Shown here: positions 8,500-50,972 of the stretch, in pieces
Layout: each line of letters begins with the position of its first letter
How positions within the stretch are numbered: the stretch's first letter is position 1
DNA from: an uncultured bacterium
GTDB taxonomy: Bacteria > Krumholzibacteriota > Krumholzibacteriia > LZORAL124-64-63
Reading direction: 5' to 3'
Assembly (NCBI GenBank): GCA_903912525.1
Contig: CAIWHK010000009.1
Location: 62,001-126,000, forward strand
Length of the DNA: 64,000 bases
Notes under the pieces: generated by a model
Told to the model about the DNA's origin: nothing
What the model saw: only the letters and a program-made list of their open reading frames with translations
Database searches by the model: none
Program-made: the position numbers and the translations under genes

Positions 8500-10221
8500 A
8501 TGTTTGCCATTGAAGTCAACGGACAGAAGCTCGAGGCCGAGAAGGGCGAGACGATCCTCAAGGCCCTGCGGCGCGGAGGCATCCATGTGCCCACCATCTG
8601 CCACCTCGAGGGCCTGTTGCCCTCGGGCACGTGCCGCATGTGCGTGGTGGAAGTCGAGGGGTTCGGCGGCCTGGTCCCGTCGTGTTCATACCCCGTCGCC
8701 GAGGGCATGGTAATCCACACCCGCACGCCGCAGGTGCTGGCCACCCGCAAGATGCTGGTGGAACTGCTCCTGAACAACCATCCCGACGATTGCCTCTACT
8801 GCGCGCGCAACGGCAACTGCGACCTCGCCAAGCTCGCCAAGGAGCACGGGGTGCGCGACCGGCTGTTCCGCGGGCCCCGCACGCCCAGGCAGAAGGACAC
8901 CTCCAGCCCTGCCCTGGTGCGCGACCCGGACAAGTGCATCCTCTGCGGCAAGTGCGTGCGTGTCTGCGAGGAGATCCAGGGCGTCTCGGCCATCGACTTC
9001 ATCAACCGCGGCAGCAAGGCCTTCGTCGGCACCGCCTTCAACCAGGGCCTGAACGTGTCCAGTTGCATCAACTGCGGCCAGTGCATCCTGGTCTGCCCGA
9101 CGGCCGCGCTGACCGAGCGCAGCCACGTGGACGAGGTACTGCGGGCCCTGGCCGATCCCGGCAAGACGGTGATCGTCCAGCACGCGCCGGCCGTCTCCGT
9201 CTCCATCGCCGAGGAGTTCGGCTTCGCCCCCGGCGTGGACTTCGACGGCAAGATGGTGGCGGCCCTGCGCCGCGCGGGCTTCGAGCGCGTCTTCGACACC
9301 TCGTTCGCCGCCGACCTGACCATCATGGAAGAGGGCAGCGAACTGGTGAAGCGCGTCACCGAGGGCGGCGCCCTGCCCATGTTCACGAGCTGCAGTCCCG
9401 GCTGGATCAAGTTCGTGGAGCAGTCCTACCCCGAGTTCCGGGAGAACCTCTCCACCTGCAAGAGCCCCCAGCAGATGATGGGCGCCGTCGTGAAGACATT
9501 CTTCGCCGCCAAGGCCGGCATTGACCCGGCCAACATCGTCAGCGTGTCCATCATGCCCTGCACGGCCAAGAAGTTCGAGGCGGCCCGGCCCGAGATGGGG
9601 CGGGATCACGCCGCGGACGTGGACTACGTCCTGACCACGCGCGAACTGGCCGAGCTCTTCCGCATCACCGGCGTGGACCCGGCGGCCCAGGAGCCCGAAA
9701 CGGCCGACACCCCCTTCGGCGAGCGCTCGAGCGCCGGCAAGCTGTTCGGGGCCTCGGGCGGCGTGATGGAGGCGGCGGTGCGCAGCGCGTACTTCCTCAT
9801 CACCGGCGCCGAGATGAAGGAATACAAGATCCAGGACCTGCGCGGCATGCAGGGCTGCAAGGAGCTGCGGGTCAAGGTCGGCGAACTCGAGATCGGCGCG
9901 GCCGTCGTCTCGAGCCTGGGCCAGGCCCGCAAGCTGATGGAGGAGATCCGGGCCGGGCGCAACGACCTTCACTTCATCGAGGTCATGAGCTGCCCCGGCG
10001 GCTGCATCAACGGCGGCGGCCAGCCTCTTGGCGCCAACCTGGAGGCCGTGAAGGCGCGCATGAACGCACTGTACACCATCGACAGTGACGACCACCTGCG
10101 GGTCAGCCACAGGAACGAGCAGGTCCAGCGCCTGTACCAGGAATTCCTGGGCGCGCCGCTGGGCCCCAAGAGCCACGAACTGCTGCACACGCACTACGAG
10201 AAGCGCGAGGTGCTCGTATGA
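8500..10221 (+). CDS. hydA: [FeFe] hydrogenase catalytic subunit
   Basis: 573 residues. It makes or splits H2 at the H-cluster. Domains: N-terminal [2Fe-2S] (CHLEGLLPSGTCRMC, about 28-42), His-Cys [4Fe-4S] (HPDDCLYCARNGNC), two ferredoxin [4Fe-4S] sites (CILCGKCVRVC and CINCGQCILVC), and the H-cluster domain from about 215. H-cluster motifs: L1 TSCSPGW near 296-302, L2 MPCTAKKFE near 352-360, L3 EVMSCPGGCINGGGQP near 495-510. This is the modular M3 layout of trimeric, electron-bifurcating (group A3-like) enzymes. L1 has Ser where clostridial CpI has a second Cys; from memory this variant is frequent in NAD(P)-linked enzymes. Nine bases separate it from hydB, and its stop overlaps the next gene as ATGA. 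Confidence 0.94.
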   Translation: MFAIEVNGQKLEAEKGETILKALRRGGIHVPTICHLEGLLPSGTCRMCVVEVEGFGGLVPSCSYPVAEGMVIHTRTPQVLATRKMLVELLLNNHPDDCLYCARNGNCDLAKLAKEHGVRDRLFRGPRTPRQKDTSSPALVRDPDKCILCGKCVRVCEEIQGVSAIDFINRGSKAFVGTAFNQGLNVSSCINCGQCILVCPTAALTERSHVDEVLRALADPGKTVIVQHAPAVSVSIAEEFGFAPGVDFDGKMVAALRRAGFERVFDTSFAADLTIMEEGSELVKRVTEGGALPMFTSCSPGWIKFVEQSYPEFRENLSTCKSPQQMMGAVVKTFFAAKAGIDPANIVSVSIMPCTAKKFEAARPEMGRDHAADVDYVLTTRELAELFRITGVDPAAQEPETADTPFGERSSAGKLFGASGGVMEAAVRSAYFLITGAEMKEYKIQDLRGMQGCKELRVKVGELEIGAAVVSSLGQARKLMEEIRAGRNDLHFIEVMSCPGGCINGGGQPLGANLEAVKARMNALYTIDSDDHLRVSHRNEQVQRLYQEFLGAPLGPKSHELLHTHYEKREVLV

Positions 10222-43066: not shown

Positions 43067-44266
43067 CTATCCCTGCCGCGAGCGCGCCAGCTCGGCGATC
43101 TCCCCGACCGCGCGCACCGCCAGGTCGGCGTGCGCCTCGGTGTTGAACGGCCCGACGCCGAACCGCACCGCGCCGTGGATCTGGTCGGTGCCGATGTGCT
43201 CGTGCACCATCGGCGCGCAGTGCAGGCCCGTGCGGCAGGCGATGCCGTAGTCGACGTCCAGCATCGTGCCCACGTCGGCCGCCTCGAAGCCGGCCACGTT
43301 GAACGACAGCACACTGATGCGCTCCTGGCCCGCCACGTCGTCGGCGCAGTACAGGGTAACGCCGGGAGTCGCCCGCAGCCCGTCGCGCAGCCGCCGCCAC
43401 AGGCCCATCTCGTGCGCGTGGATCGCGGCCACACCGCGCTCCTGCACCCACTTGACGCCCGCGTTCAGCCCGGCGATGCCCGGCAGGTTCGGCGTGCCGT
43501 ACTCCATGCGGTACGGGTATTCCTCGAGGTGGCTGCGCTGCGCGCTGCGCACGCCCGTGCCGCCGGCGCGCACCTGGCGCAGCTCGACCGACGGGTGCAC
43601 GTACATGCCACCGATGCCCATCGGGCCCATCAGCGACTTGTGCCCGGTGAAGCAGATGACCCCCGCGCCCAGCGACTCCATGTCCAGCGGCAGCATCCCG
43701 GCGGTCTGCGAGACGTCGAGCACCAGCGGGATGCCCCGCTCGCGGCACGCCTTGCCGATGGGCGCCACCGGCTGCACGGTGCCGATGACGTTCGAGCCGT
43801 GGTTGATGACGACGGCCTTCGTCGCCGGCCTTAGGCGCGCGATGACCTCGTCGGGATCGATATAGCCGTGCTGGTCGAAGTCGACCCAGTCGACGTCGAC
43901 GCCGCGCTGCTGCAGCGTCCACAGCGGCCGCAGCGACGAGTTGTGCTCCAGGTGCGTCGTGACCGCGTGGTCGCCAGGCTGCAGCAGGCCGAAGATGGCC
44001 AGGTTCAGCGCGTCGGTGGCGTTGTAGCCGAAGACCAGCCGCGACGGGTCGGCGCCGCCGAAGAAGGTGCAGAGCAGGCGCCGCGTTTCCTCGACCAGGT
44101 CGCCCGACTCGATGCACAGGTCGTAGCCCGAACGCCCCGGGTTCACGCCGTAGCGACGGTAGAACTCGTCCATGAACCGGTAGACGGACTCCGGCTTCGG
44201 GTACGAGGTGGCGCCGTTGTCCAGATAGACGAGGTCGGTGGCGTTGGCGTCAGCTTGTGACATCAT
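43067..44266 (-). CDS. Cysteine desulfurase-like class V aminotransferase
   Basis: 399 residues from ATG 44266 (ATG 44263 possible) behind GGGGAGGACC, overlapping the dsrK end by 17 bases. PLP enzyme: [13 protein letters not shown], the PLP Lys in [13 protein letters not shown] near 212, and a desulfurase-type Cys loop [15 protein letters not shown] near 350. It should release sulfur (or selenium) from cysteine (or selenocysteine) as an enzyme persulfide. It resembles the CsdA-like subgroup TIGR01977, which I recall as linked in some genomes to selenium metabolism. The position beside dsrC/M/K suggests it feeds a sulfur relay. Confidence 0.85.
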
Positions 44267-48438: not shown

Positions 48439-49599
48439 TCAATCCCCATGCCGCTGCCGCAGTTCGCGCGCCGCCGCCGTCATCGCCCCCAGCTTCGCCG
48501 CCGCCGTCTCGTGGTCGTTGACGCACCGGTTCGCAAAACACCCGAAGCCGCAGTCGGGATTCAGCGCCACCTGCCCCGGCGCGAACCACCTCAACGCCGC
48601 CTCCGCGCGAGCGATGATCTCCGCCGGCGACTCGACCTCGGCCGTGCGCGGGTTGACGACACCCAGGCCGATCTCGCGGCCGCCCAGCGCCTCGCCCACC
48701 ACCGCGATGTCGCCCGCGCGCGGCGTCGCGTACTCCAGCACGAACTGGCGCACGCGCATCTCCCGGAAGGCAGGGACAAGCTTCGCGTAGTCGCCGGTCA
48801 GCAGCACGTCCTCACGGCGGCTCCAGTTGCCGCGGCAGACGTGCAGACCGGTGCGCACGCCCGTAACCCCCTCGACCACGCGGTTGAGGAGGGCGGCGGC
48901 GTATGTGAGCTCGGCACCCGCGTCACGGCGGGTGGCAAGGGTGGCTCACATGAAGGTGCGGCGGTCGCACTCCTCGCTCATGACGATCTCGGTCAGCACC
49001 GGCTCGTCGAACTGCACGAAGGCGGCGCCGGCCGCGGCCAGTTCGAGCAGCTCCTCGCGCAGGATGCGCACCACGTCCTCGCCCATCTCGGTCTTGTCCG
49101 CGTAGGCGCCCTTCGTGAACGCGCCCACCCACATCGAGCGCGTCAGCAGGTACGGCCCCGGCAGCGTGATCTTGACGGGCTTGTCGGTCAGCTGCTGCAC
49201 GAACTTCAGCTCGTCGACGGCCAGCGGCTCGCGCCGCGCCAGCCGGCCGATGCAGGTCGGGTTGCGGATGGCCGAGGCGGGCACGTCCAGCGTGTCGAGC
49301 ATCTCCTCGAAGCCGGACTTGTCCTCGACGGTGTCGAGCATCTCGGCCAGCGACATCAGCCGCGTGCCGTCCAGTTTGTCGGTGACGAACGAGTAGAAGT
49401 TGTCGCGGCGCTGCTCGCCGTCCACGACGATGTCGACGCCGGCCTCCAGCTGCGCCGCCACGCAACGGCGCACCTCGTCGTCGGCCACGCGGTCGAAGCC
49501 GGCGCGGTCGAGCCGCCCCTGCTGGCGGTCGCGCAGCGCCCGCAGCAGCTCGCGCGAGCGCGGCCAACTGCCCACCTGGGTCACGGAAAACGGGATCAC
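48439..49599 (-). CDS. MetE-like methyltransferase with an in-frame UGA, candidate selenoprotein
   Basis: 387 codons from GTG 49599 (AGGAGAAGG upstream) to the stop at 48439, interrupted only by TGA at 48946-48948 (codon 218). The frame continues unchanged across it: ECDRRTFM-[UGA]-ATLATRRDAGAELTYA. Both sides match cobalamin-independent methionine synthase core proteins: VTQVGSWPRS, DGEQRRDNFYSF and FDEPVLTEIV before; LHVCRGNW (Zn His-x-Cys), LEYATPRAG and NPDCGFGCF (third Zn ligand) after. Homologues, as I recall them, have Cys after TFM, so TGA replaces TGC/TGT. Read-through as selenocysteine is plausible given the hairpin at 48911-48938; a nonsense mutation or sequence error is the alternative. 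Last gene of the tusA-dsrE-osmC run. Confidence 0.72.
48911..48938 (-). promoter_or_regulatory. Candidate bacterial SECIS hairpin
   Basis: After the UGA, 18 bases lead to a six-base loop CGUGAC on a perfect 7-bp stem (CACCCGC with GCGGGUG), extended by three more pairs beyond one C-C mismatch. G is the second loop base. Spacing (16-37 bases) and the loop G fit the bacterial SECIS rules as I remember them. In a GC-rich genome chance hairpins are common. Confidence 0.45.
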
Positions 49600-49612
49600 G
49601 GCCTTCTCCTGT

Positions 49613-50356
49613 TCAGATCGTCGACAGTTGCACATCCAGTCGCGTCGCCTTGGCCAGCGTCATGGCCACCGGCGAGCGCCGCCAGGTCTCTTCCCACACG
49701 GCGCGCACCTTGGTCTCGTCCTCCAGCGTCGAGGCGAAGACCTTCAGCACGACCGACTCCAGCGAAGGGTCGCCCTCTTCCAGCCCCAGGTGCGCCAGCA
49801 CGTTGACCAGCTTCGCGCGCGCGGTGATCTCCACATCGTCCACCTGCAGCCCGGCCCGCGCGCAGGCCGTGAAGAAGCCCGTCGCCAGGTCGCCGGCCAG
49901 CGCGCCCAGCAGCACCTCGACGGCCGACGGATGCTCGTCCTTCTCCTCGAAGCTGGCCGGCTGCCCGACCGTGAACGAGAAGTTGCGGCAGTACGCCGTC
50001 GTGCGCATGCCGCCGGTCGAGCGCGCGCGCAGCCGCCACTCGTACTGGCGGGCGCGGGCCTTGTCGTCGGCCAATGCCGCCACCTCGGCCGCCACCGCCT
50101 GCGCCGCCCCGCGCCGCACGAAGAACCGCTTCTCGACGTCCGTCGCCCCCGGCAGCTGGCCGAGGTACTCGTGGCCCACCATGCGGCACCACGGCGGCAG
50201 GTCGTCGCAGACGGTGCGTTCGCGGCTGCGCAGCTCCAGCACGCCGCCCTCGGGCACGCGCTGCATGTGCTCGCGGATCAGCAGCACCAGCCCCGACCCG
50301 CAGTCGAGGTCGCCCCCGTCCAGCCGGTGGTCGGGGGCCAGGCCCTCGAGATCCAC
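49613..50356 (-). CDS. TusA-OsmC fusion protein
   Basis: 247 residues from GTG 50356, two bases after the dsrE-like stop. N-terminal TusA-like sulfur-carrier domain (about 5-70): LDGGDLDCGSGLVLLI with the carrier Cys, RVPEGGVLEL, LPPWCRMVGHEYL. C-terminal OsmC-like domain (about 105-247): ARSTGGMRTTAYCRNFSF, DEHPSAVEVLLGALAGDLATGF, and FFTACARAGL. OsmC proteins reduce peroxides or handle thiols by paired Cys. The fusion joins a persulfide carrier to a thiol-active partner. Fourteen bases separate it from the MetE-like start. Confidence 0.85.
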   Translation of the reverse strand: MDLEGLAPDHRLDGGDLDCGSGLVLLIREHMQRVPEGGVLELRSRERTVCDDLPPWCRMVGHEYLGQLPGATDVEKRFFVRRGAAQAVAAEVAALADDKARARQYEWRLRARSTGGMRTTAYCRNFSFTVGQPASFEEKDEHPSAVEVLLGALAGDLATGFFTACARAGLQVDDVEITARAKLVNVLAHLGLEEGDPSLESVVLKVFASTLEDETKVRAVWEETWRRSPVAMTLAKATRLDVQLSTI

Positions 50357-50358
50357 CG

Positions 50359-50724
50359 CTAGTATCCCACGCAGGGCGAGCCCTGCGACAGCCACTCGAC
50401 CAGCGCCGCGCCGCCGGCCGCCGTCGCGCCCTCGACCAGCATGTCCTCGGTGATGCCGCGCTTCTTCAGGCACGGCGAGCAGACGAGGATCTTGCCGCCG
50501 TTGGCGGTGAACTTCCCGACCAGCTCGCTCAGCGGCGCGAACGGGGCGCCCACCGACACCTTCTCCATCTCGCCCTTCACCGCGGCCCAGACGCCGTCGG
50601 CGCTCAGGAAGACCATCGTCTCCTTGTCGCTGCCCACCGCGGCGTTCGCCACGACGAAGCCCAGGGTCGCCTTGTCCTCGTTCGTCCTGCACTCGGTGAC
50701 GGTCACGCAGAATTTCCCGGCCAT
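50359..50724 (-). CDS. DsrE-like sulfur-relay protein
   Basis: 121 residues from ATG 50724 with GAAGGGA upstream. DsrE/DsrF fold: VTVTECRTNEDKATLGFVVA, ETMVFLSADGVWAAVKG, FTANGGKILVCSPCLKKRGI with a CxxC pair near 84-87, and ending SPCVGY. Such proteins accept and pass sulfane sulfur. Six bases separate it from the tusA-like gene before it. Confidence 0.85.
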   Translation of the reverse strand: MAGKFCVTVTECRTNEDKATLGFVVANAAVGSDKETMVFLSADGVWAAVKGEMEKVSVGAPFAPLSELVGKFTANGGKILVCSPCLKKRGITEDMLVEGATAAGGAALVEWLSQGSPCVGY

Positions 50725-50729
50725 GATGG

Positions 50730-50972
50730 TCAGTCCCTTCGTTTCTCGATGAGGAAGAACGGAGGCTCGGCCTCCAGGAGGTGGTGCCCGGTCAGGCGGC
50801 ACCAAGCCGGCACCTCGATGGGCGCGCCGGCGTCGCGGCTGGCGACCATCAGTACGGCGCCCGCGGGCAGGCCGGCCAAATGGGCGCGCAGCTCGAGGAT
50901 GAAGTCGCCGCAGCCGCGATCGACGCTGTCGAACACGTCGTCGAACTGCCAGTGACGGGGAAAGCCGCTCAT
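50730..50972 (-). CDS. Stand-alone TusA-like sulfur carrier
   Basis: 80 residues, AGGAGG before the ATG. SirA/TusA fold: DSVDRGCGDFILELRAHL with Cys near 21, GLPAGAVLMVASRDAGAP, VPAWCRLTGHHLLEAE, ending with a conserved-type FFLIEK. The usual Cys-Pro is Cys-Gly here. First gene of the four-gene relay run. The 230 bases upstream to 51203 hold the likely promoter; nothing close to consensus was seen. Confidence 0.8.
   Translation of the reverse strand: MSGFPRHWQFDDVFDSVDRGCGDFILELRAHLAGLPAGAVLMVASRDAGAPIEVPAWCRLTGHHLLEAEPPFFLIEKRRD

Follow-up and report, generated by a model that had tools for sequence, protein, structure and literature searches.

The locus considered here lies in a window of 64,000 nucleotides, the whole stretch of DNA that was analysed, from an uncultured bacterium (contig CAIWHK010000009.1), and it raises the question of whether an in-frame UGA in a gene for a MetE-like protein is read as selenocysteine (Sec) and, if so, in what process such a protein might act. 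An earlier note on this DNA had proposed a MetE-type selenoprotein at 48439-49599 with one in-frame UGA, at codon 218. Direct reading of the window sequence bears out both the span and the single UGA (48946-48948), and supplies the strand, which the note had left unstated: the gene lies on the minus strand and runs from a GTG at 49599 to a stop at 48441-48439 (Table 1). The TGA at 48948-48946 is the sole internal stop of the frame, which is open on either side of it, as had been claimed, and yields 386 residues. Since the gene itself also terminates with TGA, the genetic code is not changed globally. In a profile search residues 5-378 match PF01717 with 110.8 bits (E=1.1e-31; cut-off 21). Annotation would render this gene as a pseudogene or as two fragments in genomes of at least 10 phyla. 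Based on the conservation of the UGA, its equivalence to cysteine in homologues, the presence of a SECIS hairpin and the presence of the Sec machinery, all of which lend support to the proposal of the earlier note, we regard the product as a near-certain selenoprotein, as judged from sequence evidence.

Table 1. Features of the locus in window coordinates
Feature	Position	Strand	Basis
MetE-like gene, Meth_synt_2 (PF01717)	48439..49599	minus	386 residues if TGA = Sec
In-frame TGA, codon 218, read as selenocysteine	48946..48948	minus	TGA at 54 distinct loci; otherwise Cys
Ribosome-binding site AGGAGA of MetE-like gene	49605..49610	minus	read directly; 5 nt before GTG 49599
bSECIS hairpin, loop CGUGAC (6 nt), 7-bp stem (6 bp conserved)	48915..48934	minus	exact pairing and model R1
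Zn-site codons His253 and Cys255 (LHVCRGNW; MetE HxC)	48835..48843	minus	invariant in 45 aligned homologues
Zn-site codon Glu289 (VLEYATPRAG)	48733..48735	minus	invariant; aligned with MetE Glu stretch
Zn-site codon Cys350 (NPDCGFG)	48550..48552	minus	invariant; aligned with NPDCG of MetE
TusA-like protein, 80 aa, first of four-gene operon	50730..50972	minus	PF01206 29.8 bits; conserved
DsrE family protein, 121 aa, with CxxC	50359..50724	minus	PF02635 53.8 bits; conserved in operon
TusA-OsmC fusion, 247 aa, directly upstream of MetE-like gene	49613..50356	minus	PF02566 36.8 bits, weak PF01206
Cysteine desulfurase-type PLP enzyme, possibly selenocysteine lyase	43067..44266	minus	TIGR01977 400.8 bits (cut-off 377)

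Codon 218 is TGA at 54 distinct loci from at least 10 phyla, each free of any further internal stop. A scan of a genome collection recovered 80 loci: 45 contain a single internal TGA, at codon 218 in every case, and the remaining 35 are stop-free with cysteine at that codon. Genomes of the Pirellulaceae family (n=241) furnish 12 loci of the TGA form, including four new ones, and eight stop-free forms, seven of which were read to have cysteine at the site. Within the phylum of the window the gene occurs in 9 of 80 genomes, as the TGA form in eight (the window's own and one partial copy included) and as the cysteine form in one. No residue other than Sec (TGA) or cysteine was seen at this codon among the homologues read: every TGA-free one (35 in the main set) has cysteine, so the position is what the earlier note had taken it to be, and scattered further stops, which would have told against the proposal, were found in none. 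The three residues directly preceding Sec218 (T-F-M) are all invariant and the flanking RTFM-U-ATLATR stretch is nearly so. In a tree of 79 proteins the 44 Sec rows and one cysteine row (L063) form a single group with support of 100/100, and the Sec/Cys labels require two changes on this tree, which together suggest that Sec was gained once, spread by transfer and was lost again in one reversion. Going by record titles, in which errors of MAG binning or naming are possible, the Sec group spans Latescibacterota, Planctomycetota, Verrucomicrobiota, Thermodesulfobacteriota, Pseudomonadota, Myxococcota, Acidobacteriota, Armatimonadota, Chloroflexota, Bacteroidota and Eiseniibacteriota; among the carriers of the Sec form is Fundidesulfovibrio agrisoli SG106 (L067), a sulfate-reducing bacterium available as a named strain. 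The nested cysteine form, from a verrucomicrobial genome (L063, 8001-9146), has lost the SECIS stem (2/6 pairs) and is, by its sequence and placement, a natural Sec-to-Cys reversion; the Sec, Cys and reverted forms thereby constitute a natural test set. Homologues of about 45% identity also occur on the plasmids NZ_CP035287.1 and NZ_CP038196.1 (Paracoccus versutus), where they are absent from the (incomplete) plasmid gene table; a pattern scan of viral contigs found nothing.

The SECIS-like hairpin had likewise been described accurately: the six-nucleotide loop CGUGAC begins 18 nt past the UGA and has G in its second position, and the 7-bp stem is perfect. The minimum free energy of the hairpin is -17.0 kcal/mol. 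Counted from the T of the TGA, positions 16-21 pair with 28-33 around a loop at 22-27, and the window adds the pair 15-34. The published bSECIS model specifies a loop of 3-9 nt, a stem of 4-16 bp, a loop 16-37 nt from the UGA, a minimum free energy of at most -7.5 and a G as the first or second base of the loop, with G or U after it in most cases; the window hairpin, with its loop of 6 starting CG, stem of 7, spacing of 18 nt and energy of -17.0, fits this model. Of the 46 Sec genes, 43 form all six core pairs and none forms fewer than five, whereas synonymous shuffling would give a mean of 3.7 core pairs (median P per gene 0.02); five core pairs are reached in none of the 35 cysteine homologues. 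Because pairing in the Sec genes exceeds that in the shuffles and the cysteine genes lack the stem, the hairpin is beyond chance. Codon usage carries the same imprint: in a ranking by codon freezing over 96 conserved positions with at least four-fold degeneracy, the stem codons T223, R224 and G228 take ranks 1, 2 and 3 and the loop codon R225 is fifth. Thr223 is ACC in 45/46 Sec genes, Arg224 is CGC in 45/46 and Gly228 is GGT in 43/46, and nearly all available codons are in use at Ala219, Thr220, Leu221 and Ala222, which adjoin the stem. At loop codon 225, 45/46 genes have CGU or CGG, fitting the G[G/U] rule; the exception is TCT in L053, a Marinifilum-like Bacteroidota MAG, whose SECIS (8649-8690) has the loop UCUGAU with no G in its first two positions and an A-U closing pair, against the published rule, possibly reflecting a different SelB preference in Bacteroidota. 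Covariation is weak, the stem hardly varying: there is one double change, in L053, where a C-G pair has been exchanged for A-U with compensation, and one pair shows GU wobbles. The z-scores of the free energies against synonymous shuffles are modest (mean -0.76) because GC-rich codons fold anyway, and the exact-pair test and codon freezing were preferred over them. The covariance model R1 scores the window site at 64.9 bits and finds no other site within the window; an Rfam scan of the window gave no match at the gathering threshold.

The Sec machinery is encoded in the window's own genome, which has a tRNA-Sec with anticodon UCA (67.5 bits; gathering score 47), SelA (448.6 bits; cut-off 267.9) and SelB (318.6 bits; cut-off 242.25). 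A SelA search recovered selA, whole or in part, in 42 of the 45 genomes with the TGA form, above the cut-off in 39, and SelA also in 28 of 34 cysteine-type genomes of the main set. Within the own phylum a co-occurrence test is powerless because SelA is present in 77/80 genomes; in the Pirellulaceae family SelA occurs in 18/20 genomes with the MetE-like gene versus 107/221 without it (Fisher p=2e-4, a statistic that ignores shared ancestry). In a Paenibacillaceae-type family of 105 genomes the MetE-like gene is found in three and SelA in three, with both in only one genome, and distant cysteine forms may therefore lie outside selenium metabolism.

These observations bear directly on the two readings in which codon 218 is not Sec. 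If the TGA were a real stop, the locus would be a pseudogene, the result of a sequencing error, or a pair of half-proteins, the last being suggested by a GTG-led ORF of 146 aa that begins 23 codons past the TGA. However, a one-base error cannot recur across dozens of assemblies, and the recurrence of TGA at 54 distinct loci with an intact frame and a nearly invariant RTFM-U-ATLATR stretch, in the company of the Sec machinery in the genome, leaves this reading with next to no probability; the pseudogene in particular was rejected on the conserved TGA and the conserved frame. Insertion of an ordinary amino acid through an altered code or a suppressor, to which the open frame lends itself and nothing more, is just as negligible: a genetic-code change was rejected given that the gene's own terminator is TGA, that its neighbours are normal under table 11, that the aligned residue is always cysteine and that a SECIS is located there.

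The motifs noted earlier downstream of the UGA, the His-x-Cys of LHVCRGNW and NPDCGFG, are both present and their Zn-site residues are invariant. An AlphaFold model from 45 sequences (pLDDT 88.9, pTM 0.91) retrieved, by Foldseek, best PDB matches that are all MetE, the top one being 3rpd, which was solved with selenomethionine. Sequence and model together predict a TIM barrel of the core-MetE type whose Zn site, formed by His253, Cys255, Glu289 and Cys350, is intact. Gly10-Ser11, Glu62 and Asp198 are also invariant and align with the VGS, GE and DEP motifs of MetE; in MetE structures this Gly-Ser, Glu and Asp bind homocysteine. The stretch around Sec218 falls in a gap of the alignment to the Neurospora MetE 4ztx, i.e. 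it is an insertion relative to 4ztx, and we infer from the model that Sec218 is situated in a flexible inserted loop on the catalytic face, between the DEP strand and helix 227-242. Model confidence in this loop is low (blocks of 54 and 69, with residues 219-222 below 50) and the Sec218-Zn distance is not fixed by it. The DIHSP motif of MetE is replaced by NPRT, with an invariant Pro317-Arg318 that puts Arg318 at the place of the MetE histidine; 3rpd likewise lacks the DIHSP histidine, so this loss is not decisive. The protein thus resembles core-MetE (PF01717; the Dehalococcoides core-MetE, Shewanella 3rpd and T. maritima 1t7l) in its TIM barrel, its Zn ligands His-x-Cys/Glu/Cys, its VGS, GE and DEP motifs and its want of an N-terminal half. 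It differs in the extra loop with an invariant Cys/Sec218, in the NPRT arginine for the DIHSP histidine and in its adjoining TusA, DsrE and OsmC genes; a Sec form of core-MetE was not found in the literature.

In the window the TusA, DsrE, TusA-OsmC and MetE-like genes follow one another nearly without gaps on one strand. The TusA, DsrE and OsmC neighbours of the earlier note are real and belong to a conserved operon, with the refinement that the OsmC gene is a TusA-OsmC fusion. This fusion gene adjoins the MetE-like gene at about 77/80 loci, OsmC is present at 45 Sec-type and 32 Cys-type loci, and the order TusA - DsrE - TusA/OsmC - MetE is kept at most Sec loci and some Cys loci. Judged by eye from its GALAGDLATGFF and RSPVAM stretches, the OsmC domain of the window protein (49613-50356) seems to be without the customary catalytic cysteines and may therefore serve in binding and not in the reduction of peroxide. 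The most extensive linkage to selenium genes is in L053, where, on the plus strand and with every gap below 90 nt, selA, selB, a cysteine desulfurase/Sec-lyase-type gene, yedF, a Se/S carrier (PF11823) and selD are continued by TusA, DsrE, TusA/OsmC and MetE(Sec). In Paenibacillus thalictri (L095) two selenium-metabolism LysR regulators flank the Cys-form operon, followed by selB and selA; such a regulator also scores over the cut-off in L042, L081 and L066. A selD of the Sec form (525-1613), marked by a TGA in frame close to the N-terminus, lies 3 kb upstream of the Cys-type MetE-like gene of L090, yedF is found in L058 and a yedF C-terminal-like gene in L077. In L029 a cysteine desulfurase (8843-10030) directly follows the MetE-like gene; its window homologue lies further downstream and reaches 294 bits against the model for the selenocysteine lyase SclA, under the cut-off of 525. 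Such further selenium genes are linked at about 9/80 loci, most loci showing the four-gene operon alone. From this context a selenium-metabolism role for the TusA-DsrE-TusA/OsmC-MetE operon is a well-supported prediction.

Comparable carrier domains, TusA-like and DsrE-like, are found near selenium genes in YedF (TIGR03527) and the DUF3343 Se/S carrier, and a true yedF occurs near the present operon in L053 and L058. However, TusA and DsrE are here separate genes, with TusA/OsmC and the MetE-like gene coming after them, and the window DsrE and TusA do not score as YedF. Similarly, the OsmC domain weakly matches the OsmC-related (seleno)protein model NF041052 (scoring 21.6 bits for the window and about 40 for L053 and L095), but this is under the curated cut-off of 95, and in distinction from that family and the Sec-containing DsrE-like and OsmC-like families the domain is fused to TusA and the window subunits contain no Sec.

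Two alternatives accept Sec218 and assign the protein elsewhere. It might be a Sec-containing methionine synthase that methylates homocysteine, perhaps from a methyl-corrinoid as core-MetE, the sulfur-carrier operon being incidental; the retained fold, Zn ligands and VGS/GE/DEP substrate-site motifs are compatible with this, as is the activity of the Dehalococcoides core-MetE without an N-terminal half (PMC7005905). Yet MetH is present in 23/27 Sec genomes, the window's own included, and for this reason the protein, though of the MetE superfamily, is probably not the methionine synthase of the cell. Furthermore, the best score with the NCBIfam methionine-synthase equivalog models is 182.5 bits, far under the cut-off of 406, NPRT with its Arg318 replaces DIHSP and the MetE histidine, the Sec/Cys loop is missing from standard MetE in the alignment, and the operon partners are S/Se carriers; we accordingly hold a methionine synthase to be quite improbable. 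A detoxification or redox enzyme, in which Sec218 would demethylate or capture organo-arsenic, -mercury or -selenium compounds or reduce a sulfur compound, with no part in selenium supply, is somewhat less improbable, if still unlikely. DsrE and TusA function in sulfur oxidation too, and the window has a DsrC/DsrK-like cluster downstream of the gene. Several recently listed selenoproteins act on organometals or arsenic (PMC13188914). Against this, the linked genes are selA, selB, selD, yedF, a lyase and the selenium LysR regulator, and the DsrC/DsrK cluster is no conserved neighbour.

We therefore return to a selenoprotein of selenium metabolism and propose that it very probably founds an undescribed family, namely a core-MetE-type protein with a SelB/tRNA-Sec-decoded Sec218, encoded in an operon belonging to that metabolism. 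The earlier note did not count MetE among the established selenoprotein families, and neither MetE nor PF01717 is among the 119 prokaryotic families and subfamilies in Table 1 of a 2026 selenoprotein review (PMC13188914). MetE or methionine synthase is likewise unmentioned in the deep-Sep paper, the GOS selenoproteome and a 2022 review, although unpublished annotation may exist, and no model of NCBIfam release 20 fits the protein above its cut-off. Known selenoproteins are mostly thioredoxin-like, and the MetE barrel would add a fold to the selenoproteome. The operon would also connect a Zn thiol-methyltransferase fold and S/Se carriers with the sel genes, pointing to an uncharacterised selenium-handling step.

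As to how such a system might work, SelB and tRNA-Sec would decode the UGA of codon 218 as Sec under the direction of the hairpin whose loop begins 18 nt downstream. The Zn and the retained homocysteine-type pocket could then accommodate a small thiol, selenol or selenoether amino acid, selenomethionine or selenohomocysteine for instance, with Sec218 as the nucleophile that takes up an alkyl group or selenium. From there a chalcogen relay might pass via the TusA cysteine, the DsrE CxxC and the TusA part of the TusA-OsmC protein to a supply line of Sec lyase and SelD. The Zn pocket, the Sec218 nucleophile and the relay, taken jointly, are the likeliest mechanism among those considered, but in these specifics a tentative suggestion drawn from anatomy and neighborhood. 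Still more tentatively, and on balance rather unlikely, the operon could constitute an unrecognised route of selenium acquisition, in which the Zn/Sec enzyme dealkylates selenomethionine or a methylselenol adduct and the carriers feed Sec lyase/SelD; were this so, Sec would serve in the making of Sec. The 2026 review (PMC13188914) regards the in vivo delivery of selenium to SelD as unsettled. A precedent is offered by the Sec form of SelD, where Sec in a mobile N-terminal loop similarly replaces a conserved cysteine in a selenoprotein serving selenium metabolism, although its fold and chemistry are unrelated to those of the present MetE barrel.

At many Cys-type loci relatives of the M. tuberculosis Rv1679 and Rv1680 families (NF049984, NF049985) are found between the OsmC and MetE-like genes; they score below the cut-off, and only 2/46 Sec-type loci (L061 and L072) have them. 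The Cys-type loci in question are L073-L093, Rv1679 being FadE16 and Rv1680 a substrate-binding-like protein that resembles a putative selenate-binding protein (TIGR04553), which hints at a selenium link for the mycobacterial pair. Downstream in the window, on the minus strand at 46713-42637, DsrC (46713-46276) is followed by a NarI/DsrM-type cytochrome b-like membrane protein without a Pfam match (46270-45638), a DsrK/HmcF/TmcB-like FeS protein (45617-44250), the cysteine desulfurase (44266-43067) and a YjbQ family protein. This is a possible DsrC-linked electron-transfer cluster for sulfur or selenium; as a partner of the MetE-like gene it was rejected, not being conserved beside it. Between the two, at 48079-46931 on the minus strand, lies a gene for a right-handed beta-helix protein (PF13229) that is probably exported.
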